The notes under the pieces were generated by a model, which was given only the letters and a program-made list of their open reading frames with translations, searched no databases and was not told where the DNA came from. A program made the translations under genes and the position numbers. Of a stretch of 64,000 nt of DNA, positions 49,985 to 64,000 are shown one piece after another. This DNA comes from Runella sp. MFBS21. GTDB lineage: Bacteria > Bacteroidota > Bacteroidia > Cytophagales > Spirosomataceae. Position 1 is the first letter of the stretch. Every line of letters begins with the position of its first letter. The stretch covers positions 620,001 to 684,000 of the forward strand of contig NZ_JARNTW010000001.1 in NCBI RefSeq assembly GCF_029433105.1. Reading direction: 5' to 3'.

Positions 49985-50010
49985 TATCAGATAGTATAGT
50001 TATATCAACA

Positions 50011-50042
50011 AAAAGCGGAAGCATTCATTAGCTTCCGCTTTT
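50011..50042. terminator. bidirectional terminator between nuoN and the RiPP locus
   Basis: Arms AAAAGCGGAAGC (50011-50022) and GCTTCCGCTTTT (50031-50042) with an 8-base loop; T-runs follow on both strands. It ends the nuo transcript on the plus strand. On the minus strand it overlaps the last codons of the receiver-like gene and ends the RiPP transcript. Confidence 0.92.
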
Positions 50043-50405
50043 TGCGTTTCTTACTTTTTCGATGCCTTCTAAAAATCGGCTATATGAGAAGGGTTTGTGA
50101 AGCCAATCTACGTATTGAAAAGGGACTTCTTTTAGCATTTCTTCAAACAGCGCTGAGGTGATGATAACGTTTGAATGGTACTTAACAATAGGAAGTAAAA
50201 TCGGGGCCACTACAATCGGTGTTGCTCTTACTTCCCAAAAAAGAATATCAGGATTTTGTTTTTCTAAAAACACATGAACATCGTCTTGCGAACCGCAGGT
50301 CCAGGCCAATGCTAGACCCTCGGTTCGGCGGATAAAAAAATCCATTAGAGCAGCGGCGGGTGGTTCAAACTCAATCACCCCGCAAGACAAAATTGGCAAG
50401 GTCAT
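50028..50405 (-). CDS. stand-alone degenerate receiver (LytTR-type response regulator receiver-like) protein
   Basis: Protein of 125 residues that matches a response-regulator receiver domain and nothing else. The acidic pair near the N-terminus is altered (VIEFEPPA for the usual DDEP), the phospho-acceptor Asp in the PDLIFLD-type segment is Glu58 (NPDILFWEV), while Ser84 and the conserved Lys104 (WLHKPFS) remain. There is no LytTR DNA-binding domain. The ATG directly follows the stop of the hydroxylase gene. It may act as a constitutively active-like or phosphorylation-independent partner in regulation or peptide handling. Confidence 0.72.
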   Translation of the reverse strand: MTLPILSCGVIEFEPPAAALMDFFIRRTEGLALAWTCGSQDDVHVFLEKQNPDILFWEVRATPIVVAPILLPIVKYHSNVIITSALFEEMLKEVPFQYVDWLHKPFSYSRFLEGIEKVRNAKSGS

Positions 50406-51416
50406 TCAAGGTACAGCAGGTTGATTTCTTACCCAAATATTGCAACCGTATTTGGTGCCATTCGCAACGGGGAGGCCTGCGTGGGCAGATTGGAGCAATA
50501 TCGACTGGTCGATACGATTCAAAAAATATAAGGCACGTCCTTTTTGAGGTTCTACTTTTAAATTAAGTTCAGGAAAAAATGTCTCGCCACCACTAAAATC
50601 ATCATTTAGATATACCAACATGGTATGAATACGGTGATTGGAGGCTCCCGCATCAAAATGTGGCTTAAATTGCTGCCCTTTGCTGTATTTGACACATTGA
50701 AGGTTTTCAATAAAATTGACTGGCACGTTTAGTAAATCGCTCACTTTTTGCAATATCGCTTTAAATTGCGGATTTTGACGCTCTCTAATACCCGCCGAAT
50801 AACTCGTGCGGTCGGCAGAGACGTAGCTTTCGTTGGCATATGCTTCTACTTCACTTCTTACAAATAGATTTTTTTCTTCGCAATATTGAATAATATAATC
50901 GCAGGTATCATCACTCAAAAAATGGTCGTAAGTGCGAATGTGATTTTGGAGATAATTTTTCCGTAGTAGACTTTCTGTGTCTTCTTCAGCTATGCCATGT
51001 ATTGAGTCTAAAGAATGAGGCACGGCCCGCAAAAGTGCTCCACTCCATTTGGTGGCAAATTGGTCAAGTGGTTCGACGGTTTCACCCCCATAGGGCGAGA
51101 AATAAGAGACGAACCCCTCGGAGATTGCTGTAATGATGATAAAATACTGGTCGTTTTCAAAACCCTTTAAAAAAGATAAGAGAGGGAAGTGAAGCTGTTC
51201 TAGAGAAGCCAAGGAAACCTTAAACATTTTAGTAGAACAGTTCCAATGTTGTAGTAAAAGATTGATGTCGTTTAAAGAAACAATGGGATAACGTGGTAGT
51301 TTTTGTACAGCCTCACGAATAAGTGCTTGGTTGGAATAAGGAATTATTCTTTTCACAAATTCTTGAATAAGAAGTACATTAGGACACTGTAGCGGAGTGA
51401 TGACGGTCGTTTCCAT
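50406..51416 (-). CDS. 2OG-Fe(II) prolyl-4-hydroxylase-like enzyme with degenerate C39-like N-terminal domain
   Basis: Protein of 336 residues. Residues about 160-332 are a 2-oxoglutarate/Fe(II) dioxygenase of the P4H type, with iron ligands His253 and Asp255 (KPHFDAG) and His312 (SAHAGLPV), and Lys322 for 2-oxoglutarate. Residues about 15-132 follow the pattern of a C39 peptidase-like domain (LPRYPIVSLNDI, FPLLSFLKGFENDQYF, EPLDQFATKWSGALL) but lack a catalytic Cys at the usual place and have Tyr91 and no His there. This could recognise GG-type leaders and present the core for hydroxylation. The link is inferred from location and pattern. Confidence 0.75.
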   Translation of the reverse strand: METTVITPLQCPNVLLIQEFVKRIIPYSNQALIREAVQKLPRYPIVSLNDINLLLQHWNCSTKMFKVSLASLEQLHFPLLSFLKGFENDQYFIIITAISEGFVSYFSPYGGETVEPLDQFATKWSGALLRAVPHSLDSIHGIAEEDTESLLRKNYLQNHIRTYDHFLSDDTCDYIIQYCEEKNLFVRSEVEAYANESYVSADRTSYSAGIRERQNPQFKAILQKVSDLLNVPVNFIENLQCVKYSKGQQFKPHFDAGASNHRIHTMLVYLNDDFSGGETFFPELNLKVEPQKGRALYFLNRIDQSILLQSAHAGLPVANGTKYGCNIWVRNQPAVP

Positions 51417-51436
51417 ATCAAAAAAATGGTTAAAGG

Positions 51437-53875
51437 TTAGCGAGTTCTGCTTTCTTCTTCGGCGCTACCGTTGGCGCGGTTTTTACGTTTGAAGGCCGAT
51501 TTGCCAAATTTGTAAGTAAGACGTACACCAAAGTTTTGCACATTACGGGTCTGTAAAGTGTTGACATCTACATTCAAAAACTGTCCATAAAAAGCTTCGC
51601 GATAGGTATTGAAGAGGTCATTGAAATTGAGCTGGGCGGTGAGTTTGTTGGCCCAAAAACTTTTTTGAACCCCCACCGAAACTACCCCATAGCTTTTGAC
51701 GCGATAAAACTGATCGGCTGAAGGACCTTGGTAGTAATAGCTCAGCTCGATAGTGCAATTGTTTTTGAGAGAGAAATACTGGCCGCCTCCGTAGTAGTAA
51801 GTCCAGATTCGATTGTCGAATTGTCCCGTCAGAAAACTTGATGCTACCTGACGGTGCATGATAAGTAGGTTGTTTTGTAGAGACCAAAACTTTGTTATTT
51901 TGACTGGTAAAGATAAGTCAATATTAAACACATTTTGCGTGTTGAGATTGACACGTGTATAACGAATGATCTTGGTGGCGTCATCTTGAATGGGCATTTG
52001 CACAATGATGTCCGTATCATGCACATAGCTTAGACCCGCATTGAAGTTTTTGAAGCTATAGCTCAATTCGGCTGTGTTGCGCATGGTAGGCAACAAAAAT
52101 GGATTGCCTTCGATATAGGTGAAAGGGTCGGTATAAAAAGTAAAGGGGTTGAGATCCGAAAATGAAGGTCGGGTGAGTTTGCGGGCATATCCTAAGCTGA
52201 TATTTTGGTTGTCGTCGAGGCGGTAACTGGCCTGAAAGCTAGGGAGCCAGCGTAAATAAGAGCGATCTACGACCGACGCAAGTGTGAGAGAATTGCCACG
52301 GGTTTGGGTATGTTCGAGGCGTAAACCTGCTTCAACAGTAAATTTTTTCCATTCTTTTCCCAAAATAACGTAGGCGGCTGAAATCTGCTCGTTGTAGCGA
52401 AAACGATTGCTTTTGGAAGCATCATATCCCCAGCCCCCTAGCGAAAGCGTATCATAGCGTAGGGCATCGTCACTATTTACCCAACTAAATTTGGTTCCAG
52501 CGGCCAACTGAAGTGTTTTGGACAAGGGGTGCGTATAATCAGCACGAATCGAACGAATACTTAACTCCGATGTACCATCGCCCATTAGACGAGAAGTGGA
52601 TATGACAGTGGAGTTATCGTTGTTGAGAAAGCGGTTTTGAATGTCCTGATTTTCGGTGCGTGAGTATTTGCCATAATCCAAATCAATGGTTAATTGATTG
52701 TTTTTAGGGCTGAGCGTACCTCGATAATTGAGATTGAGAGAGCGGGTAGGCCCTTTGATGGTATTTTGATTGAGGGTCTGGATGTTTTGTCGTGCAGTGA
52801 TGATGTTTTGGGCATAAGTATCAAGATGGGTCAAGTTGTCACTCAAATCGGTGCGATTTCTAAATACCCCTTTTGCAATAACTCCAATAGTATTTTTAGG
52901 GTTGATTTGATAATCAGCTCCTACGCGATAAGTGACTGGCTTTGAATCATAGTGAATGAAAGCATTGGGCGTCATAAGAGTATAGTTGTTTCCTTGCCCG
53001 ATGCGTCGAAAACCAGACATATTCAAAAAGTCGTTGTCGTTTCGGTGGCTTACTACTCCAAAATACGTCCACTGGCGTGTTTTATAAGTGGCACTTAGGC
53101 CAGTTTCGTAGCCACTAAATTGTCGATTTTGATTGAAGCCCCCGTAAGCTATGCCAGTCCAACCCAGGTTTTTGTCACGTTTGAGTTTGATATTGATAAC
53201 CGCTCTTATTTCACCTTCAAATCTTGCACTGGCGTTGGAGACGATTTCTACTTTTTCGATGTCAGAGGCGGGAATATTCCTTAGTTCTTCGGCACTAAGT
53301 GGCTGAGGACGCCCGTCGAGCATTACCAAAGGTGCGTACAAACCTTTGATGCTAATTCCTCCACTGGGGTCAACGATAAGGCTAGGAGAGCGTTTTAGAA
53401 CATCGATAGCATTGGTAGATGTTTTGAAAACGGCGCTGTTGGCTACATTTACAATCAATTTTCCGTACTCACGTTCGAGCAATGGACGCTCGCCTTTTAC
53501 CACCACCTCTTGTAAATTTCGGGCTTCAGATTCAAGAATGAATTCGCCTATTGATAAAGAAGGAGAACCATTTTTTACTTCCAAAATAGAAGAAATAAAA
53601 GCTTTGGAACCCATGTTGGAGATCTTTACAAAATATTGACCTGAGCGAATCCCTACCAATTCAAAGGTGCCTGTAGTGTCAGTAATAGCTCCTTTGATAA
53701 AACTAGAATCAGCGGCTAGTAGCATGACAGTCGCAAATTCAATAGCATGACGTTTGTCGTCAAAAACCTTTCCTGTCAAAGTCGTGCTTGACGAATCGGC
53801 AAGTACTTGTGCCTGGGCCAATATCCGCCCTGCTAGTACCATAAAAACAAGAATGATTAGCTTTTTCATACCCAT
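51437..53875 (-). CDS. TonB-dependent-receptor-like outer-membrane barrel of RiPP locus
   Basis: Outer-membrane protein of 812 residues. Signal peptide (MGMKKLIILVFMVLAGRILAQAQ), a carboxypeptidase-regulatory-like domain (TLTGKVFDDKRHAIEFATVML), a plug-like segment (LQEVVVKGERPLLEREYGKLIVNV, IDVLKRSPSLIVDPSGGI) and a large barrel ending in RKNRANG-type tail. It belongs to the outer-membrane beta-barrel family found with peptide exporters and receptors rather than to SusC. The position between the adaptor and hydroxylase suggests that it carries the peptide across, or takes it up from, the outer membrane. Confidence 0.85.
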   Translation of the reverse strand: MGMKKLIILVFMVLAGRILAQAQVLADSSSTTLTGKVFDDKRHAIEFATVMLLAADSSFIKGAITDTTGTFELVGIRSGQYFVKISNMGSKAFISSILEVKNGSPSLSIGEFILESEARNLQEVVVKGERPLLEREYGKLIVNVANSAVFKTSTNAIDVLKRSPSLIVDPSGGISIKGLYAPLVMLDGRPQPLSAEELRNIPASDIEKVEIVSNASARFEGEIRAVINIKLKRDKNLGWTGIAYGGFNQNRQFSGYETGLSATYKTRQWTYFGVVSHRNDNDFLNMSGFRRIGQGNNYTLMTPNAFIHYDSKPVTYRVGADYQINPKNTIGVIAKGVFRNRTDLSDNLTHLDTYAQNIITARQNIQTLNQNTIKGPTRSLNLNYRGTLSPKNNQLTIDLDYGKYSRTENQDIQNRFLNNDNSTVISTSRLMGDGTSELSIRSIRADYTHPLSKTLQLAAGTKFSWVNSDDALRYDTLSLGGWGYDASKSNRFRYNEQISAAYVILGKEWKKFTVEAGLRLEHTQTRGNSLTLASVVDRSYLRWLPSFQASYRLDDNQNISLGYARKLTRPSFSDLNPFTFYTDPFTYIEGNPFLLPTMRNTAELSYSFKNFNAGLSYVHDTDIIVQMPIQDDATKIIRYTRVNLNTQNVFNIDLSLPVKITKFWSLQNNLLIMHRQVASSFLTGQFDNRIWTYYYGGGQYFSLKNNCTIELSYYYQGPSADQFYRVKSYGVVSVGVQKSFWANKLTAQLNFNDLFNTYREAFYGQFLNVDVNTLQTRNVQNFGVRLTYKFGKSAFKRKNRANGSAEEESRTR

Positions 53876-53910
53876 GTGAGAGTTGAATGATTGATAAAAA
53901 ATCTAAGAAG

Positions 53911-54636
53911 CTAGATGATTGACTTGAAAATGCGACTGAGAAGCCGCTCGTCATCAAGCATAATTTCGGCTGTTCCTTGCAACAAAGGCTGGATTGGGAG
54001 TTTGTTGCCAGTATTGGTAACAAGACCATTGCTAAGGGTGACATTGGCACGGTAATGATTATCAAGAGATACCGGTACTACCCCTGAGACATATCCTTCC
54101 AAAAAACCATACTGATTGTCGGGATAAGGATCGAGTTTGATAAGTACTCTTTGCCCTTTTTTCACTCGTCCAGCTCCTTTGATGGGGAGTTTGAGCTGTA
54201 CTTCGTAAGACGTCACCGTCGGTACTACCAGAAGCATAAAAGCTTTGGGATTGTTTTCGACTCCTTTGATGAGATAAGTTTTTCCCGAAACACGCGCCCG
54301 GACAGGCTTGGTAGTTTTGTGAGCCGCATCAATTTCAGACACCAAAGTGTCGCCTACTTTAACTCGTTGGCTGTCTCCCACATGAGTACGATAAGTGACG
54401 AGAGGGTCTGTGATGTACCAAATGATTTTTTGGGGTTGATCTTTGGCATTGATGAGGGCTTGGGCGTTGAGGCTGTCAGGGTAGCGAATAGTGTGCGAGA
54501 CGAGCACCAAAATGGCGATAACCCCTGCTAAGATTGTAATCCCCCATCTAATGATCCAATGAGGTACATGACCGATGATTTCTTGCAGTTCGCCGCTATG
54601 AAGCTCATAGCGATTATGAATATCTGACTGTGGCAT
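53911..54636 (-). CDS. short HlyD-family membrane-fusion adaptor
   Basis: Protein of 241 residues with one membrane segment (WGITILAGVIAILVLVSHT, about 29-47). Two lipoyl-like half motifs (VKVGDTLVSEID and VKKGQRVLIKLDPYP) flank a short region, and no long coiled-coil hairpin is present, unlike typical 400-residue HlyD proteins. It is 24 bases downstream of the ABC exporter gene and probably forms the periplasmic sleeve of that exporter. Lack of the hairpin implies a different contact to the outer membrane. Confidence 0.8.
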   Translation of the reverse strand: MPQSDIHNRYELHSGELQEIIGHVPHWIIRWGITILAGVIAILVLVSHTIRYPDSLNAQALINAKDQPQKIIWYITDPLVTYRTHVGDSQRVKVGDTLVSEIDAAHKTTKPVRARVSGKTYLIKGVENNPKAFMLLVVPTVTSYEVQLKLPIKGAGRVKKGQRVLIKLDPYPDNQYGFLEGYVSGVVPVSLDNHYRANVTLSNGLVTNTGNKLPIQPLLQGTAEIMLDDERLLSRIFKSII

Positions 54637-54660
54637 AGTAATAGTGCGTTTGGAGGCTGA

Positions 54661-56961
54661 TTAACTCTCGGCCAGTTCGAGTTGATTTTTCACAAGTTCA
54701 AAATAAGCACCTTTGCGGGCGGTAAGTTGGGCATGATTTCCCACTTCTTTGACCATACCATCTTCCAAGACTACGATTTGGTCGGCGTTTTTGACCGTGC
54801 TTAAGCGGTGAGCAATCACTATTACGGTGCGGCCTTTAAAGAAACGTTCGAGATTTTCCATGATGACCCGCTCGTTGTTGGCATCTAAGGCGCTGGTGGC
54901 TTCGTCAAAAAATAAGTAAGTGGGGTTTTTGTAAACCGCTCGTGCAATAAACAATCGTTGCCGTTGGCCGCCGCTAAGACCTGCCCCAGTATTCCCTATT
55001 TTAGTAACAAATCCTAAGGGAAGCTTGCGGATATAGTCTTGAAGATTGGCTACCCTGACCGAATCCCAAAGCCGGTCTTCATCGACAGTATTGCCATCGA
55101 CCGCTATATTGCGAGCGATAGTATCCGAAAAAATATACCCATCCTGCATAACTGTACCACAGCCTTTGCGCCATTCTTTGGCCGATAAGTCGAGTAAGTT
55201 GCAGTGATTGACGATGATTTCGCCTTCCGAAGGCGCATAAAACTTCAGAAGAAGTTTGAGAAGGGTAGTTTTGCCACTTCCACTGGTACCCACAATAGCC
55301 GTCACCTTTCCTTCTGGAATGTGTAAATTGAGATTTTTGAGAACCAAAGAAGAGTGCGGCCCGCCATAGCGAAACGAAACATTGCGAAGCGTAATACCAC
55401 GGCGATGTGATACCGCAGCTAAGGTATCATCATCAAAATAGAGTGCCTCGGTAGATTCTGCCATAGGTGTTTCGTGCTGGAAAACTCTCCCCAAAAGCTT
55501 TTCTTCGTCGATTTCTTCATCGGGTTTGTTATGAATTTCGCCTAAGCGGTCGAGGCTGATTTTTGCATCTTGTACACTTCTAATAAACTGCATGAGTTGG
55601 CTCAGTGGGCCGTTCATTTGTCCGATGATGTACGAAATACTCAACATCGCCCCTAGCGTAATTTGGTTGTTGATGACCAGCATCGCCGCCAAATACGAAA
55701 TCAAAATGTTTTTGAGCTGGGTCACAAAAGAAGCGCCTACTTCTTGGTATTGTTCAAGAGCTAGGCTTTTGATATTGATTTTGAAAAGTTTGGCCTGAAT
55801 TCGTTCCCATTCCCAGCGGCGGGCTTTTTCACAATTGTTGAGCTTGATTTCTTGCATACCCGTAATAAGCTCATAAATCGTGTTTTGGTTTTCGCGCATT
55901 CGCTGGAATCTTCTGTAATCCAAATCCTTCCGCTGACGTAAGAAAAACATAATCCACCCAATCGAAATGAGACTCCCAATGGCAAACACCGCCAAAAGCT
56001 GTGTGCCATAAATGCCAAGAATGACGGAGAAAATCACCAAGTTGACAACCGAAAAAAGAGTATTGAGAGAGGCACCAGTCAAAAAAGATTCGATGCGGTG
56101 ATGGTCTTGAATACGCTGCGAGATGTCGCCAATGTTTTTGGATTCAAAAAAACTAATCGGCAACTTCATGAGTTTCATCAGAAAGTTGGAAATAATCGTG
56201 ACACTCACTCGCGTACTAATGTGGAGCAATATCCAGTTTCGGATGAGATCGACGGATACATTGCCAATAAAGAGCAACAACTGCGAAAGCAGAATGAGAT
56301 GGATAAAGGAGACATTGTGCCGATGAATCCCAAAGTCGATTAAACTTTGGGTTAAAAAAGGAAATATAAGGCTGATGACACTGCCCAAACACATCCCTAA
56401 AAGCACTTGTGTGATATGTCGCTTATAAGGATTGAGGTATTCAAATAAAAATTTAAAACCCGTCTTTCGTTCTTTGGTTTCTTCGCTGAGTTGATAAAAC
56501 TCAGGAGTAGGCTCTAGAAGTAAGGCAATTCCGCGACCGTCGTCGGCGGCTCCCCAGCATTTCATAAAAGTGGCTTTGTCGAGGTTGACCATACCGTGGC
56601 TAGGGTCAGCTACGAGGAGCCGTTCGGCTTGTTCTTGACGAAAAGGCAAAAACCGCCAAAAATCTCTTTTTACTTCATACAGTACCACAAAATGCTCTTG
56701 ATTCCAGTGTAATACACAGGGGAGAGGGGCATCTTGAGTGAGTTGTTTGTAAGAGAGTTTGGCACGAAGGGTTTTGAAACCAATTTTTTCGGCAGCTTCG
56801 CTAATGCCTAGCAAGCTCACTCCTTGGCGAGTGATGTAAGAATTAGCGCGCAGATATTCCAACGAATAATCTTTGCCGTAGAAGGCCGCGGCCATCTTCA
56901 GACAAGTGGGCCCGCAATCCATCATATCGAGCTGACGGTAATATTTGTAGCGGTTTGCCAT
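54661..56961 (-). CDS. peptidase C39-containing ABC transporter (PCAT) for GG-leader peptides
   Basis: Bacteriocin-type exporter of 766 residues. Residues 1-145 form a C39 peptidase with Cys16 (MMDCGPTC), His90 (NQEHFVVLY) and Asp119 (VADPSHG). A six-helix membrane domain follows (about 170-450), then an ATP-binding domain with Walker A GTSGSGKTTLLK, signature LSGGQRQR and Walker B YLFFDEATSALD. It should cleave GG-leader precursors after the second Gly and export the core. The six GG-leader peptides encoded upstream are its evident substrates. Confidence 0.97.
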   Translation of the reverse strand: MANRYKYYRQLDMMDCGPTCLKMAAAFYGKDYSLEYLRANSYITRQGVSLLGISEAAEKIGFKTLRAKLSYKQLTQDAPLPCVLHWNQEHFVVLYEVKRDFWRFLPFRQEQAERLLVADPSHGMVNLDKATFMKCWGAADDGRGIALLLEPTPEFYQLSEETKERKTGFKFLFEYLNPYKRHITQVLLGMCLGSVISLIFPFLTQSLIDFGIHRHNVSFIHLILLSQLLLFIGNVSVDLIRNWILLHISTRVSVTIISNFLMKLMKLPISFFESKNIGDISQRIQDHHRIESFLTGASLNTLFSVVNLVIFSVILGIYGTQLLAVFAIGSLISIGWIMFFLRQRKDLDYRRFQRMRENQNTIYELITGMQEIKLNNCEKARRWEWERIQAKLFKINIKSLALEQYQEVGASFVTQLKNILISYLAAMLVINNQITLGAMLSISYIIGQMNGPLSQLMQFIRSVQDAKISLDRLGEIHNKPDEEIDEEKLLGRVFQHETPMAESTEALYFDDDTLAAVSHRRGITLRNVSFRYGGPHSSLVLKNLNLHIPEGKVTAIVGTSGSGKTTLLKLLLKFYAPSEGEIIVNHCNLLDLSAKEWRKGCGTVMQDGYIFSDTIARNIAVDGNTVDEDRLWDSVRVANLQDYIRKLPLGFVTKIGNTGAGLSGGQRQRLFIARAVYKNPTYLFFDEATSALDANNERVIMENLERFFKGRTVIVIAHRLSTVKNADQIVVLEDGMVKEVGNHAQLTARKGAYFELVKNQLELAES

Positions 56962-57038
56962 AGTGTAAGTGCTTATGCGTAGTTAATTATGAATATTTGA
57001 CTGATAATCAACAAGATTATCAGTGGCTTGTCGGATAC

Positions 57039-58088
57039 TTAGACAGAAGCCAATTCTTCGGAGGGAGCGAGTGCATTTTTGAAAAAAAGTACACACGAGG
57101 CACGTTGGCGAGAAGAAACTTTGAGTTTGTTGACGAATTGCTCGGCGGTACTTTGCCAATGTGTATCATAAAACCCCCCTTGACTCAGGTGTTTGGTGAG
57201 CTCGACAAGCAATGCCAATTTATAGATGTCAAAATGAGTCGGTTGGTTTTTGAAGAAAGAGACAGTACGCTGTAAAATATCTTCTGATACTTCTGGTGCA
57301 TAAAATGCCTCTTTGAGCTCAAACCATTCTAGCATTGCACGTTCATCGGGAGTAGCGGGCTCCCAAAAGGTAAGATTTTTGAACGCTATCTCAAACAATT
57401 CACGTTCAGTAGACAGATAATTTAAGAAAATGCTAACAGTTTCACTGCTCAATTGGAGCAGCATGTCTGAACGGAGTTGGACGGGTGCTTGGCGTAGATA
57501 GTTTTCTGCCCATTGGTCGCCCAGTGTCGGTATATGTCCATATACCATAAAACGCAACGCTTGTCCAATCACACCAGCAGCTTCTTCTAAGCGTTGTTGC
57601 GAAAAATATAGCCTTGCCAGATTGTGCAACTGCTGAATACGGTGGTATTCGAGAATATAAAAACCCTGCGCTGTAAGTAGAGCGTCATTGCCGATAGCCG
57701 AAACAAGCATGGTTTCTGCCTCGGCATAGTTTTTTTGTTTGTAACGTAAATAAGCAATGGCTGGCAATGCCGAAACCTCTACCAAATAAGGAAAAAGTGA
57801 TAAGTCGGTAGGAGTATGGTGCCTGTAATGTTGTACTTCGTCAAATATACGTTGCGATACTTGAAACTGTCCATTGCGAGCTTCCGCCAGTCCTTTTTCA
57901 TACCTAGTCCAGAGGTAGCTCAAACTACGCCATTGGGTAGCTGCATAATTTTTGGCTAATTGTGTGAGGGTATCGGCGTAGATATTATCATGGATTAAAT
58001 CCCGCTTGGTGGAGGAGGTGCCAGATTCTACTTCACTCAGCAACTCTTGCATCTCTTGTAAGAGGGTGGTATACACAAATCGGTTCAT
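57039..58088 (-). CDS. helical (TPR-like) protein of unknown function in RiPP locus
   Basis: Protein of about 349 residues, starting MNRFVYTTLLQEM at 58088, 11 bases after the radical SAM gene stop; the in-frame start at 58199 would overlap it by 100 bases. The sequence is nearly all predicted helix with TPR-like stretches (YLRYKQKNYAEAETMLVSA, LHNLARLYFSQQRLEEAAGVIGQAL). No enzyme motif or membrane segment. Position between the maturase and exporter suggests a scaffold or substrate-binding role, but that is inference. Confidence 0.6.
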   Translation of the reverse strand: MNRFVYTTLLQEMQELLSEVESGTSSTKRDLIHDNIYADTLTQLAKNYAATQWRSLSYLWTRYEKGLAEARNGQFQVSQRIFDEVQHYRHHTPTDLSLFPYLVEVSALPAIAYLRYKQKNYAEAETMLVSAIGNDALLTAQGFYILEYHRIQQLHNLARLYFSQQRLEEAAGVIGQALRFMVYGHIPTLGDQWAENYLRQAPVQLRSDMLLQLSSETVSIFLNYLSTERELFEIAFKNLTFWEPATPDERAMLEWFELKEAFYAPEVSEDILQRTVSFFKNQPTHFDIYKLALLVELTKHLSQGGFYDTHWQSTAEQFVNKLKVSSRQRASCVLFFKNALAPSEELASV

Positions 58089-58099
58089 GGCTTGGGAGT

Positions 58100-59458
58100 T
58101 TATTGGTTTAGGAGTTCTACCAGTTTTTCTTTGCCTCGTTTTTGGAGAGCATAGTACAGCTTGAGCTTTTCTTCGATATTGAATTTGTTGGTAGGGCAAG
58201 GAGCCATTCCTTCACGCCAAGATTTGGGGCAGCCACCACCGCACACAGGAAGCATTCGGCAAGTAGTGCAGGGATAATGTCCGCCTTCGGCTACTTCGTC
58301 ATGAAACGACAGCAATGGGCGATGCTCGGAGATGGTTTCGAGGCCATTGCTCACATTTCCCAATACGTAGGGGGTGTTTTCGTAAGTCGAGACATACGGT
58401 ACTTCGGTGCAGTCGAAGACATTTCCAAAAGCGTCAAATACCTCGGCATCGGGAGTTACAGATAAGCATACCACTGGATTGAGACCCGGTAGTAAACGAG
58501 GATTGAAACCTAATCTGAACATTTCGAGTATCCAATCCATTTCTTGTTGGGCAAAAGCTTTCTTTTCAAGCGATAGTAAATGAGCGTCGTTGCCCCAAGA
58601 GTGAATGGGAGCTACGTAGAAATAAGAGATTTTGTCTTGTAAATTATGATCAGCAAGGAGTTGTAAAAGTGGTTTTACGCTCTCGTTGTTTCGTTCGTCT
58701 ACATTACACCGAATCGAAATCGAACACCCTAACTCTTTGAAATCTGGTCGGTTATATATTTTTAGAAGATTTTGGAATATCAATTTAAAAGTAGAAAGTC
58801 CTTCTTTGGTATGGCGTCGTGCATCGTGGTATTCGGCGGTACCATCAAGGGTTACTTCCATGCTAGTAACACCGTATTTTTGGGCCAATTCTAAGAAAAC
58901 TGGTTCTTTTAAACTTAGTCCGTTTGTGACGACTTTACTGCTATAGCTGCATCCATGCTTTGCTGCAATCGCCTGAATACGAGGAGTAAGGGCGCGAATC
59001 TGAGCATAAGCCATGAGGGGCTCGCCCCCAAACCATGATATTTCTACATGCTTGTATTTTTTCTTTTCAAATTTACTTTCGATACGAGTTAATATACGAT
59101 CATAATTTTCGGACGATATATAATCTTTGGTATGATTTTGTCCACAATAGCCACAGCCCAATTGGCACATTGCCGTAGGCTGAATAACGTGGTAGAGGGT
59201 ATTGCCATCAGCCACTGCGGCTTTGTTGCGACCAATGATCGTTTTGAGTTCGTCATTATCTGCCGGAACGATGGCTTCTATTTGTAACATTTTCTCAAAA
59301 ACCTGATCCTCAATTTCATCCCAAGCACCACGCATTAGCTTGTCGTAGAGGGAATTGGTAATGACCAAGGTACGAGCCGTGCGAGTAGCAAAAAGTACTC
59401 GTTTGCGTTCTGTGACAGGTTCGGTCACAACGAGGTATTGTGATAGCTTGAAGTCCAT
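58100..59458 (-). CDS. radical SAM/SPASM peptide maturase
   Basis: Enzyme of 452 residues. The N-terminal 75 residues look like a PqqD/RRE-type leader-binding winged helix (LVITNSLYDKLMRGAWDEIEDQVFEKMLQIEAI). The [4Fe-4S]-SAM motif is Cys98, Cys102 and Cys105 (CQLGCGYC). A SPASM domain follows with FDCTEVPY and CTTCRMLPVCGGGC plus a final Cys, binding two auxiliary clusters. It is the nearest modifying enzyme to the four Cys-containing precursors and likely installs thioether or other cross-links in them. Confidence 0.92.
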   Translation of the reverse strand: MDFKLSQYLVVTEPVTERKRVLFATRTARTLVITNSLYDKLMRGAWDEIEDQVFEKMLQIEAIVPADNDELKTIIGRNKAAVADGNTLYHVIQPTAMCQLGCGYCGQNHTKDYISSENYDRILTRIESKFEKKKYKHVEISWFGGEPLMAYAQIRALTPRIQAIAAKHGCSYSSKVVTNGLSLKEPVFLELAQKYGVTSMEVTLDGTAEYHDARRHTKEGLSTFKLIFQNLLKIYNRPDFKELGCSISIRCNVDERNNESVKPLLQLLADHNLQDKISYFYVAPIHSWGNDAHLLSLEKKAFAQQEMDWILEMFRLGFNPRLLPGLNPVVCLSVTPDAEVFDAFGNVFDCTEVPYVSTYENTPYVLGNVSNGLETISEHRPLLSFHDEVAEGGHYPCTTCRMLPVCGGGCPKSWREGMAPCPTNKFNIEEKLKLYYALQKRGKEKLVELLNQ

Positions 59459-59526
59459 TTTGATTCAGGGATGATTAATGGGTTTTACGAAAGACAGATA
59501 GCGGTAATCTGTAAAATGAGATATAA

Positions 59527-59727
59527 TCACTTATGGGAAACGACAGTATTAGGGTCACAGCTGCTGTTGCTTACCGTGCAGCTATCATTTTTGTTGTTGC
59601 CAGAGCAGCTAATATTTGTCTCAACGCCTCCCGCTAGCTCTTCGGCTTCTTGGGGAGTGATATCTTCCACATGCTCAGAGGATTGCGATACTAGCTGGTC
59701 TATATTACGCTTAGATGGAGTATTCAT
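59527..59727 (-). CDS. RiPP precursor P4 with GG leader and three-Cys core
   Basis: Peptide of 66 residues. The leader contains VEDITPQEAEELAGG, matching the other three; the core starts VETNISCSGNNKNDSC and continues CTVSNSSCDPN. Like its sisters it keeps three Cys, SNxxC and a Pro two residues after the last Cys. It is separated from the upstream precursor by a terminator-like hairpin and is followed by the radical SAM gene after 68 bases. Likely matured by that enzyme and exported by the C39 ABC transporter. Confidence 0.85.
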   Translation of the reverse strand: MNTPSKRNIDQLVSQSSEHVEDITPQEAEELAGGVETNISCSGNNKNDSCTVSNSSCDPNTVVSHK

Positions 59728-59760
59728 GGCAGTGATTTTAATTTTAGAAATTAAGTCTTG

Positions 59761-59795
59761 AAAAGCAGGCGGGGAGTTGGTAGCGTCCCGCCTGC
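59761..59795 (-). terminator. terminator-like hairpin between precursors P3 and P4
   Basis: On the minus strand GCAGGCGGGA and TCCCCGCCTGC (59795-59786 and 59775-59765, one bulged base) enclose a 10-base loop and are followed by TTTT. It probably lets more precursor than enzyme mRNA be made. Confidence 0.7.
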
Positions 59796-59805
59796 TGCTG
59801 CGGTT

Positions 59806-60000
59806 TTATTCAGCTACCTCGGCTGCTTTAGGACCACAGCCCGTATTGCTGATGGGACATCCTTTGTTGTTGCCAGAGCCACAGGATACGTTGAGTTCGT
59901 GACCTCCTGCGAGTTCTTCGGCTTCTTCGGGTGAGATGTCTTCAAAGCCTTCTCCTTGTGATGCGAGTTCGTCGAGTTTGAGTTTAGATGGATTTGCCAT
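59806..60000 (-). CDS. RiPP precursor P3 with GG leader and three-Cys core
   Basis: Peptide of 64 residues starting MANPSKLKLDELASQGEGF; leader ends EDISPEEAEELAGG and the core is HELNVSCGSGNNKGC then PISNTGCGPKAAEVAE. The leader is almost identical to that of P2 and the core to that of P1. No Thr in the first half of the core, a few Ser. Confidence 0.88.
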   Translation of the reverse strand: MANPSKLKLDELASQGEGFEDISPEEAEELAGGHELNVSCGSGNNKGCPISNTGCGPKAAEVAE

Positions 60001-60065
60001 GAGAATTGAAAGTTTAGAGATGATTTTATAAATTAAAAAAAGGAACCTCAGTGTTGTAATTCCTA

Positions 60066-60272
60066 TTAAGTGAGGTCAATAGAAGCCGAAGACGGAGGAC
60101 AACTGTTGTTGCTTACGGGGCAACTGTTGTTTTTGTCGTTGCCAGTAGAAGGGCAGCCCGTATTTCGGTCAAAACCTCCTGCGAGTTCTTCGGCTTCATC
60201 TGGTGAGATGTCTTCAAAGCCTTCACCTTGTGATGCGAGTTCGTCAAGGCTAAATTTGGAAGGATTTTTCAT
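60066..60272 (-). CDS. RiPP precursor P2 with GG leader and three-Cys core
   Basis: Peptide of 68 residues starting MKNPSKFSLDELASQGEGF; leader ends EDISPDEAEELAGG. The core begins FDRNTGCPSTGNDKNNSC and continues PVSNNSCPPSSASIDLT. The core is the most divergent of the four, with two extra residues between the first and second Cys, but the three Cys, SNxxC and C-x-P features are kept. Confidence 0.88.
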   Translation of the reverse strand: MKNPSKFSLDELASQGEGFEDISPDEAEELAGGFDRNTGCPSTGNDKNNSCPVSNNSCPPSSASIDLT

Positions 60273-60320
60273 GAACTTTTAGATTGGCTGAAAGTGATGA
60301 TTGAGGGTACTTCTAAAGAA

Positions 60321-60355
60321 CTATCGGCTGGTAAAGTTTTGTTGCCAGCCGATAG
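60321..60355 (-). terminator. hairpin between precursors P1 and P2
   Basis: Perfect 11-bp stem (60321-60331 with 60345-60355, CTATCGGCTGG/CCAGCCGATAG) with a 13-base loop just downstream of the P1 stop. It may attenuate transcription or protect the P1 mRNA. Confidence 0.65.
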
Positions 60356-60364
60356 GGCTTATCT

Positions 60365-60568
60365 CTAATTGGCTTCTGCCGCAGCCGGACCGCAGCTCGT
60401 ATTACTTACTGGGCATCCTTTGTTGTTGCCAGAGCCACAAGCTACGTTTAATTCATGTCCTCCGGCGAGTTCTTCAGCTTCTTCAGGGGTTAGTTCAGCA
60501 AATCCTTCTTCTGGATTCTCAGTTCCGTCAAGTTTGTTAAGGATGTCTCCTAGCGATTTCGTTGCCAT
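60365..60568 (-). CDS. RiPP precursor P1 with GG leader and three-Cys core
   Basis: Peptide of 67 residues from the ATG at 60568 (MATKSLGDILNKLDG); the in-frame start at 60655 would add 29 residues unlike the other leaders. Leader ends EGFAELTPEEAEELAGG; the core is HELNVACGSGNNKGC then PVSNTSCGPAAAEAN. It is the first of four sister precursors and the one nearest the regulatory direct repeats at 60695-60764. Confidence 0.85.
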   Translation of the reverse strand: MATKSLGDILNKLDGTENPEEGFAELTPEEAEELAGGHELNVACGSGNNKGCPVSNTSCGPAAAEAN

Positions 60569-60694
60569 GATTGAAAGTGGTTTAGAGAAATGAAATAAAT
60601 GATTTGGGAGGATTATCGGGGCGCCTTTCGATTCAACTCCCTGTCGTTTTGACATTCGAAAATTGGCAGATTAGGCGCGGAACAGAAAAAAAAT

Positions 60695-60764
60695 TAGACG
60701 GAGTTTAGAAGATACTCGACGAATTTGAGCCTTCTCAAGAAGCTTTTTTGTATACTCGACGAAT
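60695..60764 (-). promoter_or_regulatory. LytTR-like direct repeats upstream of precursor P1
   Basis: On the minus strand ATTCGTCGA (60724-60716), 12 bases, and CTCCGTCTA (60703-60695) form a 9-bp direct repeat of 21-bp period, followed by an A/T tract. A third copy of ATTCGTCGA lies 40 bp upstream (60764-60756). LytTR regulators bind 9-bp direct repeats about 21-22 bp apart. The element starts 22 bases after the rSAM stop codon. Confidence 0.65.
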
Positions 60765-60786
60765 GAAACTTGGTGAGTTTAGGGCA

Positions 60787-61998
60787 TTAGGCGTTGTGGT
60801 GAAGCTGAAGCAATGCCTCTTGATAAGAAAGTGGCGTCAATTGAGTCTTCTGGACAAAAGATACGGGTAAGCGTTTAAGTAGTTTGTTTTGTATATGGGT
60901 AATGAGTTTTAATAAATCCCGACAGTAAACCGAGGGATTATCGAAACCATTACTTGGATGATAGCGATGTACAATAAATCCTCCCCCGCAGACCTCCTTG
61001 ATAGGGCATCGCCGACAGGCTGAAGGAAGCTCTTGATGGCTCTGAGCACATAGCTGAATCAAAGGTGCTTGTAAGGCCTCTTCCAACGAATGTGTTGTCA
61101 CATTGTAGCCTTCTTTCGTAATGCCATCTGCGCATACTTTGAGCGAGTCTTGGGCTTCGATACTGCCGTCGGTATCAATAATCAAAAACAAATGAGCATC
61201 TCTTCCTACTTCGTCGGCACTGGAAGGTAATCCTAGGATGAGCTGGATAATGTGTTGAAAATAAGGGATGTAAGGTCTTTGGGGGGAGGGGAGTTGCCAC
61301 CAATCGTCAAACACTACCAAAAGCCAATCGGCAAGGGGCGTAGCGGGGTGGGCATTAAGCCAGGGATAAGAGGTGTGGGTATAGTCGGGAAAGAGAAAAT
61401 TGAGGAAACGAACTTGGAGCGATAAAAAATGTCGGAATACTTCTAAAGGATTAGTAGTGGGGTCGATTACGCACAAAACCCCCGGATGAAAAGGGAGCGC
61501 CGGGTGATTTTGGGCAAGTTTGAGCCCACGTACAGTGTCATGATAGGAGCCTTGGCCCGCAAAATCCACCCGATAAGAGTCGTGTAGATGTGGAGGCCCG
61601 TCTAGGCTGAATCCAAGTCGAAACCCCCAATCCCCTAGCTGCTGACACCAATCGGCTGTAAGTAAGGTACCGTTGGTTTGTAACGAAAAAACGGCCTCGG
61701 TATAAGAAGGTAACAAACGAGATGCTTGAGCTACAAATTTTTCATAAAAGGCCGGTGGAAGTAGCAAAGGCTCTCCTCCGTGAAATATAAATCGAAAATG
61801 CCTAAGACGGTGCCGCCGACAGTAGTGTGCCACTCGCTTCAGAATAGCCTCTACTGTCTCATCGCTCATGCGTTTGGGCTGCGCTTTGTAAGTAGTATCT
61901 CCTTTGTTATAAACGTAGCAGTAAGTGCAATTGAGATTGCACCTACTCGTAACTTTGAGTACGAGGCCTTTGATATGAGCGCTTCGGCGACGACTCAT
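60787..61998 (-). CDS. FxsB-like radical SAM/SPASM enzyme (candidate three-residue cyclophane synthase)
   Basis: Enzyme of 403 residues. The SAM cluster motif is Cys20, Cys24, Cys27 (CNLNCTYC), followed by FIFHGGEPLLLP, SLQTNGTLL and GFSLDGPPHLHD. The C-terminal SPASM-type region CRRCPIKEVCGGGF with HRYHPSNGFDNPSVYC is the hallmark of FxsB-type maturases, which form aryl-to-beta-carbon cross-links (triceptides) in Omega-x-x motifs. Its ATG overlaps the stop of precursor P6 (ATGA), showing direct translational coupling. It is likely that P5 and P6 are its substrates. Confidence 0.88.
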   Translation of the reverse strand: MSRRRSAHIKGLVLKVTSRCNLNCTYCYVYNKGDTTYKAQPKRMSDETVEAILKRVAHYCRRHRLRHFRFIFHGGEPLLLPPAFYEKFVAQASRLLPSYTEAVFSLQTNGTLLTADWCQQLGDWGFRLGFSLDGPPHLHDSYRVDFAGQGSYHDTVRGLKLAQNHPALPFHPGVLCVIDPTTNPLEVFRHFLSLQVRFLNFLFPDYTHTSYPWLNAHPATPLADWLLVVFDDWWQLPSPQRPYIPYFQHIIQLILGLPSSADEVGRDAHLFLIIDTDGSIEAQDSLKVCADGITKEGYNVTTHSLEEALQAPLIQLCAQSHQELPSACRRCPIKEVCGGGFIVHRYHPSNGFDNPSVYCRDLLKLITHIQNKLLKRLPVSFVQKTQLTPLSYQEALLQLHHNA

Positions 61999-62195
61999 TG
62001 GTCATTGGTCGGAAATGATTCGGTTTTGGCCTGATTGCTAAGGCCATCTTTAATCCAACCTACATTTTGACCATCAAAATCTTTTTGTGCGCCTCCCGTA
62101 ATGATGTCTAAGTTATCTTCTTCTAGATTTTTGAGTTCATCCAAGAGTTTTTTATTGGCTTTTTTGGAAGCAGGAAGCGAAAACCACTTTTTCAT
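61995..62195 (-). CDS. Cys-free RiPP precursor P6 coupled to FxsB-like enzyme
   Basis: Peptide of 66 residues starting MKKWFSLPASKKANKK, with a leader ending EEDNLDIITGG. The core after GG reads AQKDFDGQNVGWIKDG and then LSNQAKTESFPTNDQ. It has no Cys but contains aromatic-x-x motifs (WIK, FPT, FDG) of which WIK resembles the W-S-K of darobactin. Its stop overlaps the ATG of the radical SAM gene. The leader is unlike that of P1-P4. Confidence 0.85.
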   Translation of the reverse strand: MKKWFSLPASKKANKKLLDELKNLEEDNLDIITGGAQKDFDGQNVGWIKDGLSNQAKTESFPTNDQ

Positions 62196-62214
62196 GACTT
62201 ATTTATTGTTAAGG

Positions 62215-62418
62215 TTAAAAATTGATTAACAAAAAAGGTGCTGTCGTTTTGGGGTCTTTGTCTCTGTCAAATTGAGAAGTTGGGGTAAAATCTTTGTCAC
62301 CTCCTCTTACTTGTAAAGACTCTTCCTCTGAAAGCAGTTCGATAAGGTTGTTGGTGGATTGCATTGCTAAGTCTAAGTCACTAGCTGTTGCTACAAAAAA
62401 ATTCAGTGTCTTTTTCAT
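62215..62418 (-). CDS. Cys-free RiPP precursor P5
   Basis: Peptide of 67 residues from the ATG at 62418 (MKKTLNFFVATASDLD); leader ends SEEESLQVRGG. The core DKDFTPTSQFDRDKDP then KTTAPFLLINF has no Cys. Like P6 it begins with xKDF soon after GG, and contains FTP and FDR aromatic-x-x motifs plus five Thr/Ser residues. It lies 19 bases before P6 and about 95 bases downstream of the LytTR-like repeat. Confidence 0.82.
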   Translation of the reverse strand: MKKTLNFFVATASDLDLAMQSTNNLIELLSEEESLQVRGGDKDFTPTSQFDRDKDPKTTAPFLLINF

Positions 62419-62512
62419 AGATAAGGAAAATAGGTTAATGACATATAATATACCACGCCAAACGGATTGTGGTAGCAAGAATACAGTCTAATAAAAAAGC
62501 GAAAAAAAAATT

Positions 62513-62542
62513 TAGACGAATTTTGGGTTCTACTCGACGAAT
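62513..62542 (-). promoter_or_regulatory. LytTR-like direct repeats upstream of precursor P5
   Basis: On the minus strand ATTCGTCGA (62542-62534), 12 bases, and ATTCGTCTA (62521-62513), followed by a T-rich tract. Repeat sequence and 21-bp period are the same as at 60695-60724. A TATTCTTG box, a one-mismatch -7 element, lies about 30 bases further on. Confidence 0.68.
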
Positions 62543-62548
62543 GTAAGC

Positions 62549-64000
62549 CTACTCTAGAAGTTTGGATTTTCGTTGACGTGCGTTTTCGGAACTATAAAAC
62601 CTCAGAAGAAAGTGATAAACGATAAGTTCGTGCGTACGAGGCGCATTGGTAAAGAGGCGATTAAGTGAAAGATGAATATAACTCGCAATGACCTCAAAAG
62701 CTTGCTTGGATACAGGCAAATACGACTCTATGAAAGCCCTTACTTTTTCCGAACGTTGAAGAAGGATAGACGCCTCTGCAAGATTGGTGTTTAAGAGTGC
62801 TTCTTCAATCAAAGAAAACTCTCGGCGGTATTTATCGTTGAGTTGTGTTTTGAGATGGAGAGCATGTTCACTCAAAAAACGACTTTGAAGTAAAGCGAGA
62901 ATTTCTACTTTTTGATTCAAATCCAACCCAAAATCATCTAACCAATAGCTTACGTTGCTTAATGCAAAATACCCCTTCTGGTTGTCGTCGGAAGCATGGA
63001 TGAGATAAGCTAAGATGGCCTCACTATCAGCTGTAAAAATCTCCTCAGTGATTTTTATGGGAAATAAATGATAACGTTCAATCTCGCGCTGGTAAGTATC
63101 AATTTGCACTTTGTAGATAGTACCCGCATCAAGATAGGTACGCAAAGCAAGATTGACTAAGGAGAAAACATCCGAGTCGCTAGAGTGATGCCTAAAACGC
63201 AAACGTAAATGAGGATGAGGGTCGGCAAAGCGTACAAAAAACCATTCGTGGATACAATCGTGAGATTTTAAGGAGAAAATTAAGGTAGGAAGAGCGTGAA
63301 TGATAAAGTGCTCAATCGTAGATTCTCCCGCGTACAGTTTCAAAGAGAGCCATTCTTCTCCCGGAAAAAAAACTTGTTTTGTGGATACATAATGAGAAAA
63401 TGGTGGCAGAGGGGGGACGACTTCTGCCGTTGGGTTCCAACACGGAATAATCATCTCATTGGTGTATCTCTTTTGGTGTGGGCCTTGTACCCAGCATTGA
63501 TCGGGCGATTGTAGCCACTCACTAAGCCTGATTTTTTTATGAGCTTGTAGGGTAGTGATTAGTATTTCTTGGCAAAAAGGCTTTGAAAGATCCAATAGTA
63601 GTTCATTGTCGCCTTCGGAAATGCTGATTTTATCGGGAAACAAAGGATACTGTCGAAACCATTCTTTGATTTGCGCAAAAGTCAATGGGGTTTTGAAATA
63701 CTCTACCGAAAGATGCCAAGTGGCTCTACTCAAAATGACTTGTTTGTAGCGTACGCGGGGCAAAAATGAAAGATGCTCTAACTCACCCCATTGCCAGTAA
63801 ATTCTCAACCGTCCGTACTGACCCTGTAAGTCGCACAAAAACCGGTACACTCCTAAACCGTTGCGGTAGTTGTGTGCGGTAGATAAGCGAGGAATAATTT
63901 CCTTTTGCAGACGTTTGGAACGGACTATAATTCGGTGATTAGAAGTAACCGAAATCATCAAATCATCTAAAGAAATAGTATGGTTATCATCTACGCTACT
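62549..64000 (-). CDS. LanB-type lantibiotic dehydratase, C-terminal part (5' end beyond window)
   Basis: The frame is open from the right edge to the TAG at 62549, giving 483 residues; the 470-residue ORF from a TTG at 63961 is not the real start. Visible are the end of the glutamylation domain (IIVRSKRLQKEIIPRLSTAHN, then YRFLCDLQG) and the elimination domain (FFPGEEWLSLKLYAGE, WFFVRFADPHPHLRLRFRH, QIDTYQREIERY). LanB makes dehydro-Ser/Thr by tRNA-dependent glutamylation and elimination. Complete proteins are about 1000 residues. No LanC cyclase gene is in the window. Confidence 0.93.
   Translation of the reverse strand, partial: SSVDDNHTISLDDLMISVTSNHRIIVRSKRLQKEIIPRLSTAHNYRNGLGVYRFLCDLQGQYGRLRIYWQWGELEHLSFLPRVRYKQVILSRATWHLSVEYFKTPLTFAQIKEWFRQYPLFPDKISISEGDNELLLDLSKPFCQEILITTLQAHKKIRLSEWLQSPDQCWVQGPHQKRYTNEMIIPCWNPTAEVVPPLPPFSHYVSTKQVFFPGEEWLSLKLYAGESTIEHFIIHALPTLIFSLKSHDCIHEWFFVRFADPHPHLRLRFRHHSSDSDVFSLVNLALRTYLDAGTIYKVQIDTYQREIERYHLFPIKITEEIFTADSEAILAYLIHASDDNQKGYFALSNVSYWLDDFGLDLNQKVEILALLQSRFLSEHALHLKTQLNDKYRREFSLIEEALLNTNLAEASILLQRSEKVRAFIESYLPVSKQAFEVIASYIHLSLNRLFTNAPRTHELIVYHFLLRFYSSENARQRKSKLLE

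Follow-up and report, generated by a model that had tools for sequence, protein, structure and literature searches.

Whether several peptide-modifying enzymes encoded side by side act on one product or on several is the question raised by a locus of Runella sp. MFBS21. The window analysed is a stretch of 64,000 nucleotides (contig 1, bases 620001-684000; genome size 7.88 Mb), and the locus occupies the minus strand at its end. Read downward from position 64000, the genes encode the dehydratase LanB, the precursors A1 and A2, a first radical S-adenosylmethionine (SAM)/SPASM enzyme (rSAM1), the precursors B1-B4, a second such enzyme (rSAM2) and a TPR-like protein, and then a C39 peptidase/ATP-binding cassette (ABC) exporter, an HlyD-like adaptor, an outer-membrane barrel, a 2-oxoglutarate (2OG) dioxygenase of prolyl-4-hydroxylase (P4H) type and a receiver-like protein. 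An earlier note, made from the window alone, described a hybrid locus for ribosomally synthesized and post-translationally modified peptides (RiPPs) and offered two outcomes, three chemistries meeting on one peptide or serving separate products.

Separate products are favoured, because the modules are found apart in other genomes, a distinct precursor type adjoins each radical SAM enzyme, and LanB, too, probably has a precursor to itself. We put at roughly 55% the probability that the cluster is a single LytTR two-component regulon with three RiPP product lines. In the first, LanB would use Glu-tRNA to dehydrate a Thr-rich, Cys-free precursor of 45 amino acids, yielding a linear dehydropeptide with no LanC required. 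In the second, rSAM1, which resembles YhhB and FxsB, would cross-link A1 and A2, the latter probably at Trp-x-Lys. In the third, rSAM2 would place one thioether at each NxxC of B1-B4, from the Cys sulfur to Asn, probably at the beta carbon, and the P4H domain would hydroxylate Pro at position +1 or +2 from Cys. A dead C39-like domain on the hydroxylase is predicted to hold the double-glycine (GG) leader, so that this enzyme could serve peptides of differing core chemistry, and the C39-ABC exporter, the HlyD-like protein and the barrel would cleave the GG peptides and export them. Of all these enzymes, only rSAM2 and the hydroxylase probably act on a common peptide.

Gene content and recurrence in the family

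Pfam and NCBIfam matches back LanB, both radical SAM/SPASM enzymes, the 2OG oxygenase, the C39-ABC exporter, the barrel and the adaptor, bearing out their earlier placement on one strand; the "short adaptor" is now identified as an HlyD-like protein of 241 amino acids. LanB does continue past position 64000, as had been proposed, and is complete there. A LytTR response regulator and a histidine kinase precede it beyond the window, as does a seventh precursor candidate, without GG. Within the window the earlier note had not listed the TPR-like protein, the receiver-like protein or the N-terminal C39-like domain of the dioxygenase. The six GG-leader precursors of two types have open reading frames (ORFs). 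Against Runella zeae DSM 19591, the nearest named relative of the locus, dN/dS is 0 to 0.12 for all 17 genes compared; A1, A2, B2 and B3 show no amino acid change, the seven nucleotide changes in A1 altering none. Because of this purifying selection the six precursors are regarded as real genes. None of them scores over the cut-off of a curated, named family.

The locus forms one unit that recurs in relatives. The full set lies in one stretch in five of the 222 family genomes, Runella sp. MFBS21 included, so the possibility that these genes always stand apart elsewhere falls away. The other four are R. zeae (L077, L009), Rhabdobacter roseus (L072, L010) and the genomes G589 and G607. All five share the order histidine kinase, regulator, LanB, A1, A2, rSAM1, B precursors, rSAM2 and TPR-like gene. 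The exporter, HlyD-like, barrel and hydroxylase genes come next in Runella sp. MFBS21, R. zeae and Rhabdobacter; in G589 and G607 this part starts with the barrel and hydroxylase, and three other genes separate these from the exporter, inside which the stretch read ends, before any HlyD-like gene came into view. Three further genomes have the set rearranged or split between contigs. In G510 it is spread over two contigs; in G489 and G457, LanB, a DUF6734 protein, B precursors, rSAM2, TPR-like protein, hydroxylase, barrel, exporter and HlyD-like protein are encoded together and rSAM1 lies about 5.3 kb beyond the cluster, with A1 and A2 in G489 and with A1 in G457. Both Dyadobacter-group clusters carry the DUF6734 gene between LanB and the B precursors (L014:5577-6488, L095:4619-5512). 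In G457, rSAM1 fragments and an A2-like peptide are found between LanB and DUF6734 (L095:4113-4606), an intact rSAM1 relative being about 17 kb off.

A search for rSAM2 relatives (E 1e-60 or better) gave 13 loci in 12 of the 222 genomes, and one for rSAM1 relatives (1e-100) gave 26 loci in 23 genomes; LanB lies within 1.5 kb of rSAM1 at five of the 26, which are the five full clusters. The surroundings of 13 loci carrying the C39-like/2OG fusion were read. The fusion accompanies rSAM2 at eight (nine if G510 is counted by its contig ends), LanB and LanC at two (G387 and L012, from a metagenome-assembled genome (MAG)), LanB with three rSAM1 copies at one (L015), and an ATP-grasp-like protein with an rSAM1 relative at one (G460). 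The last arrangement (L096:8555-11793) hints at use of the fusion in a further RiPP class. The TPR-like gene adjoins rSAM2 or the fusion in relatives.

The B precursors and rSAM2

rSAM2 scores over the cut-offs of PF04055 and the TIGR04085 SPASM model, and its CQLGCGYC motif has the form CX3CX2C, as in a ranthipeptide-type maturase; the B cores likewise show a fixed spacing between Cys and acceptor. Counted over 18 cores of six genomes (without the near-identical R. zeae, and before G510 came to light), Asn stands at position -3 of 51 of 52 Cys residues, the lone exception being Asp. When Cys was fixed and the other residues were permuted in 10,000 runs, the mean was 8.5 and the maximum 21. 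An enlarged set of 28 cores, which takes in the precursors recognised next to other rSAM2 relatives and again omits R. zeae, has 77 Asn and 7 Asp at -3 (84/92 Cys). We infer that rSAM2 forms one thioether per NxxC, between the sulfur of Cys and the Asn at -3.

By analogy the bond is probably to the beta carbon of Asn: NxxcA of Streptococcus orisratti carries a single Cys23-Asn20 bond through Cbeta (PMC8326336). In the streptococcal NxxcA/NxxcB system, a beta-thioether ranthipeptide, a SPASM radical SAM enzyme links Cys to the Asn at -3 (PMC8326336), and nearly every Cys of the B line has this spacing. NxxcA has one NxxC, whereas the B peptides mostly have three and those of G599 more, and the GG leader, the Gram-negative host and the prolyl hydroxylase also set the present system apart. 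The G599 precursors (L125:6107-6634) contain six or seven Cys, almost all of them in NxxC; an rSAM2 relative and a C39 exporter are encoded next to them, and neither LanB nor the hydroxylase was found within the 18 kb read.

The best placed of the alternatives, though an unlikely one, is that rSAM2 forms alpha-carbon thioethers of the sactipeptide type at Asn or Asp. A Calpha linkage may occur here, as both outcomes are known for SPASM maturases (PMC8326336), and rSAM2 reaches the cut-off of none of the 25 best NCBIfam maturase models, clearing only that of the SPASM domain model. What favours the beta carbon is that the sole NxxC peptide in the portion of PMC8326336 drawn on here joins Cys to Asn at -3 via Cbeta; the finding of Asp, too, at -3 likewise speaks against alpha links.

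We regard as improbable a single heavily modified hybrid in which all the chemistries fall on the B peptides, LanB acting on Ser/Thr, rSAM2 on Cys and the hydroxylase on Pro. The B cores do contain 1 to 10 Ser/Thr, and of the nine genomes that have both rSAM2 and the fusion, eight encode LanB in the same cluster (G510 probably), while the LanB of the ninth, S. endophyticum, lies about 60 kb off. Yet those eight clusters have a Thr-rich ORF upstream of LanB, G599 combines B precursors and rSAM2 with no LanB in the stretch read, and visual inspection shows no Ser/Thr position shared by all B cores.

The A precursors and rSAM1

A2-like peptides, in which Trp follows GG, stand upstream of the rSAM1 relative at 20 of the 26 loci, two more loci having Phe-Phe-Ile-Arg, and A1-like peptides (GGD[KR]) occur at 19; these tallies come from visual inspection of a listing, the filter of which may have lost or favoured some of the peptides. 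As a label for rSAM1, "FxsB-like" is only approximate: the enzyme aligns over nearly the entire YhhB (NF041707) and FxsB (TIGR04269) models, but below the curated cut-offs (333.4 versus 445 and 325 versus 370 bits, respectively). The triceptide motif is an aromatic-x-x cyclophane. The Trp-Ile-Lys of A2 fits a triceptide-type cross-link, and the Trp after GG at the 20 loci is compatible with such a cyclophane. The locus thus resembles the YhhB/FxsB cyclophane maturases in the near-full-length alignment and the Trp-x-Lys of A2, and differs from them in its scores and in the paired A1/A2 precursors, often with histidine kinase/LytTR and C39-ABC genes nearby.

The A peptides were also considered as LanB substrates and judged unlikely, given that inspection found no Ser/Thr position shared by the A1 cores and that LanB is close to so few rSAM1 loci. 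At two loci (L075 and L078) LanB does adjoin A peptides, so that the pairing may nonetheless occur.

LanB and its candidate precursor

LanB is a full-length dehydratase that retains the positions aligned with NisB R83, R87, R786, E823, R826 and H961; across the 16 LanBs compared, nine NisB-equivalent positions are retained in all, save one Lys at R966. These residues presumably serve catalysis and elimination as in NisB. A LanB acting as a ligase without elimination is unlikely, the elimination residues being retained. Of 12 LanBs without an adjoining LanC, nine are preceded by an ORF of 42-47 amino acids whose leader is basic and whose tail is rich in Thr, with 5 to 10 Ser/Thr among the last 20 residues. 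These nine are the eight LanBs that accompany B peptides and rSAM2, plus the unlinked LanB of S. endophyticum. The ORFs were spotted by eye, and four of eight met the preset leader pattern. Seven of the nine are Cys-free. The NCBIfam class I lanthipeptide leader model matches three of them, all below cut-off, and the Runella sp. MFBS21 ORF, which has no Cys, scores 10.9 against a cut-off of 22. Selection on the latter is only weakly shown, because it differs from that of R. zeae by six nucleotides and three amino acids.

A LanB without LanC would follow from a Thr-rich, Cys-free precursor. The search for a LanC beyond the window, called for by the earlier note, gave no PF05147 match in the Runella sp. 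MFBS21 genome (listed as 100% complete), so that a LanC hidden elsewhere in it was rejected; nor was there a match in the R. zeae genome or adjoining any of the five full clusters. Matches away from the cluster occur in Rhabdobacter, G589 and G607, and weak ones in G489 and G457, that of G457 being a 462-amino-acid protein inside the cluster and below the cut-off.

It is in our judgement quite improbable that the locus is a standard class I lanthipeptide cluster to which accessory enzymes have been added, the rings on the B cores being closed by a LanC encoded elsewhere. Such a cluster is suggested by LanB itself, a canonical dehydratase with intact active sites, by the unlinked LanC matches in G589, G607 and G556, and by RuiABC of Runella limosa, a normal, LanC-containing LanABC system that makes three thioether rings (PMC9993889). 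The other marks of the class, a LanC cyclase and a precursor with lanthipeptide leader and core Cys, are not seen here: none of the A and B precursors reaches the leader-model cut-off, whereas two LanC-partnered LanBs have Cys-rich GG precursors over it. In the tree of 16 LanBs the four LanC-partnered ones group together (92/97, under the tool's starred level). RuiABC, as described in PMC9993889 and PMC9576775, is alike in genus and LanB; it has LanC and forms its rings, while the present locus has no LanC match and a Cys-free precursor on the LanB side.

The C39-like domain of the hydroxylase

The N-terminal domain of the dioxygenase matches Pfam C39 over the cut-off (27.3 versus 22). In a comparison of the whole protein structure the P4H domain filled the match list, so the N-terminal domain was modelled separately, and it has the C39 fold; the remainder has the P4H fold with HxD...H and the 2OG-binding Lys. 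In two comparisons, 0 of 21 and 0 of 11 C39-like fusion domains have an intact Cys-His-Asp/Asn protease triad. Because of this the domain is likely a docking module for GG leaders, not a protease. That it works as a second leader peptidase is highly improbable: the Pfam score, the Cys kept in 16 of 21 and the one domain of 11 with Cys and His would allow it, but the Asp position is lost in all 21 and all 11 and the Cys in 5 of 21. Pro next to Cys in the precursors tracks the presence of the fusion gene, which is compatible with, but no proof of, peptidyl-Pro hydroxylation. The C39-like domain of HlyB and the C39 domains of PCAT1 and LahT150 have an ABC transporter as partner, whereas here the partner is a prolyl-4-hydroxylase. 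A C39-like domain fused to VKOR and thioredoxin was also seen beside a C39 exporter (L098:7243-8862 and L099:5869-7629), in L099 with Cys-rich GG precursors nearby; the same docking idea could apply there to a disulfide-forming enzyme.

Operator-like sites and regulation

The 27-bp composite GTCGAG-N15-GTCTAA has three copies in the whole Runella sp. MFBS21 genome, ahead of the LanB-side precursor, A1 and B1, that is, one per precursor set. The window holds just three copies of the sequence ATTCGTCGAGTA, each upstream of A1 or B1. The composite is at these places in 3/3 cases in R. zeae, 3/3 in G589, 3/4 in G607 and 1/2 in Rhabdobacter. The reversed pattern, as a control, gave 0 to 6 copies per genome (Runella sp. 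MFBS21 0, R. zeae 1, G589 6, G607 4). The 21-bp spacing presumably suits a LytTR regulator, and we infer that the regulator of the cluster binds these sites.

The streptococcal Com/Blp regulons combine GG peptides, a C39 exporter, a histidine kinase and LytTR regulator, and direct-repeat operators. The Runella system is like them in these respects and unlike them in its RiPP enzymes and Gram-negative host. The receiver-like protein (50028-50405) has no output domain and is a possible phospho-mimic partner of the LytTR system; its phosphoacceptor position is Glu in Runella sp. MFBS21 and Rhabdobacter and Asp in MAG L075 and G510.

Findings that weigh against the three proposed product lines

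Several observations count against three separate lines as proposed. On the LanB side, no clear Thr-rich ORF precedes LanB in L075 and L078 (the A side) or in L015, those of G589 and G510 have one Cys each, and the gap to LanB reaches 349 nucleotides in G589 and 458 in G510, where a receiver-like gene intervenes. No Thr-rich ORF scores over a leader-model cut-off (best 0.0011; six of nine without a match), and none has a GG motif, which bears on their protease and export. For the B line, distant rSAM2 relatives alone give 20 of 27 Cys in six cores against 6.6 expected, a count that is partly circular, the cores having been picked by eye and one source listing filtered partly on NxxC. Confined to precursors directly upstream of rSAM2, 14 of 17 Cys fit: 2/2 in C146 of G510 and 12/13 in G599, both present also in a listing not filtered on NxxC, and 0/2 in S. 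endophyticum, whose precursor has no clear GG leader either and whose rSAM2, 54% identical, adjoins the fusion. G510 C78 fits at 12 of 13 Cys (8 Asn, 4 Asp), and the G591 precursors at 5 of 9. The C39-like domain that keeps Cys and His, without Asp, is that of G489. As to regulation, the composite site is absent from G510 and G457, and G489 has one copy, elsewhere. In G589 and G607 the placement of the sites, not their number, is the evidence, because the reversed control gives six and four there. The pattern was derived from Runella sp. MFBS21, R. zeae, Rhabdobacter, G607 and part of G589, so presence in these genomes is not independent evidence; scarcity elsewhere in them is.

Layout of the locus

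A2 and rSAM1 overlap by 4 nucleotides, and most other intergenic gaps are below 100 nucleotides; longer ones precede B1 (218), A1 (130) and LanB (323). A convergent gene on the other strand (48590-49984), which we take to encode an NADH dehydrogenase subunit, and a stem-loop bound the end of the cluster. An Rfam search of 50000-64000 gave no match, and a promoter scan did no better than shuffled sequence (26 found versus 24.2 expected).

Table 1. Genes and sites of the Runella sp. MFBS21 locus (window positions unless a contig or L002 is named)
Feature	Position	Strand	Remarks
LanB-type dehydratase, C-terminal part in window	62549..64000	-	Lant_dehydr_N and Lant_dehydr_C
LanB, full gene, 1010 aa	L002:1550-4582, ends contig 1:685581	-	complete beyond window
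Thr-rich, Cys-free precursor candidate without GG, 45 aa	L002:4609-4746		26 nt before LanB
Operator-like site GTCGAG-N15-GTCTAA ahead of A1	62512..62538	-	one of three genome-wide
Precursor A1, 67 aa, GG leader, core starts DKDF	62215..62418	-	
Precursor A2, 66 aa, GG leader, VGWIKDG in core	61995..62195	-	
rSAM1, YhhB/FxsB-like radical SAM/SPASM maturase	60787..61998	-	CNLNCTYC cluster motif
Extra half site ATTCGTCGAGTA ahead of B1	60753..60764	-	
Operator-like site GTCGAG-N15-GTCTAA ahead of B1	60694..60720	-	
Precursor B1, 67 aa, GG leader, three NxxC	60365..60568	-	
Precursor B2, 68 aa, GG leader, three NxxC	60066..60272	-	
Precursor B3, 64 aa, GG leader, three NxxC	59806..60000	-	
Precursor B4, 66 aa, GG leader, three NxxC	59527..59727	-	
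rSAM2, radical SAM/SPASM maturase, predicted NxxC thioether synthase	58100..59458	-	CQLGCGYC motif
TPR-like protein, start inferred at ATG	57039..58088	-	TPR_2, TPR_10 below cut-off
C39 peptidase/ABC exporter, GG leaders	54661..56961	-	Pfam and NCBIfam
Short HlyD-like adaptor, 241 aa	53911..54636	-	Pfam
Outer-membrane beta-barrel, TonB-receptor type, 812 aa	51437..53875	-	Pfam
C39-like domain (residues ~8-138) fused to prolyl-4-hydroxylase-fold dioxygenase (~153-336)	50406..51416	-	
Receiver-like protein, Glu at phosphoacceptor Asp position	50028..50405	-	alignment; no Pfam match over cut-off
Stem-loop, terminator-like	50009..50044	.	consensus match only

Significance

Bacteroidetes class I lanthipeptides with GG leaders are already known (PMC7268733), and areas with a radical SAM enzyme and LanC but without LanB have been reported in Bacteroidales (PMC10352776). 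In the open-licence PubMed Central literature no description was found of the present gene combination or of the C39/P4H fusion. Both appear undescribed, and the earlier note's remark to that effect on the combination is not contradicted. As a tentative extension, it is possible that Bacteroidota turned the GG-protease domain of an exporter into a dead docking module that can be fused to various tailoring enzymes (P4H in the present locus and, in G591 and G599, VKOR-thioredoxin), a GG-leader recognition element of its own kind, working inside a single LytTR regulon that makes three distinct peptides, perhaps with A1 as an autoinducing signal in a Gram-negative counterpart of Com/Blp.

The genes are short, each prediction can be tested directly in E. 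coli, and the operator-like site offers a search key for relatives. If three separate lines are indeed made, LanB would be working without LanC on a Cys-free substrate, a Gram-negative bacterium would produce multi-ring NxxC thioether peptides with hydroxyproline, and enzymes would have a way of recognising GG leaders that does not depend on the class of the peptide.

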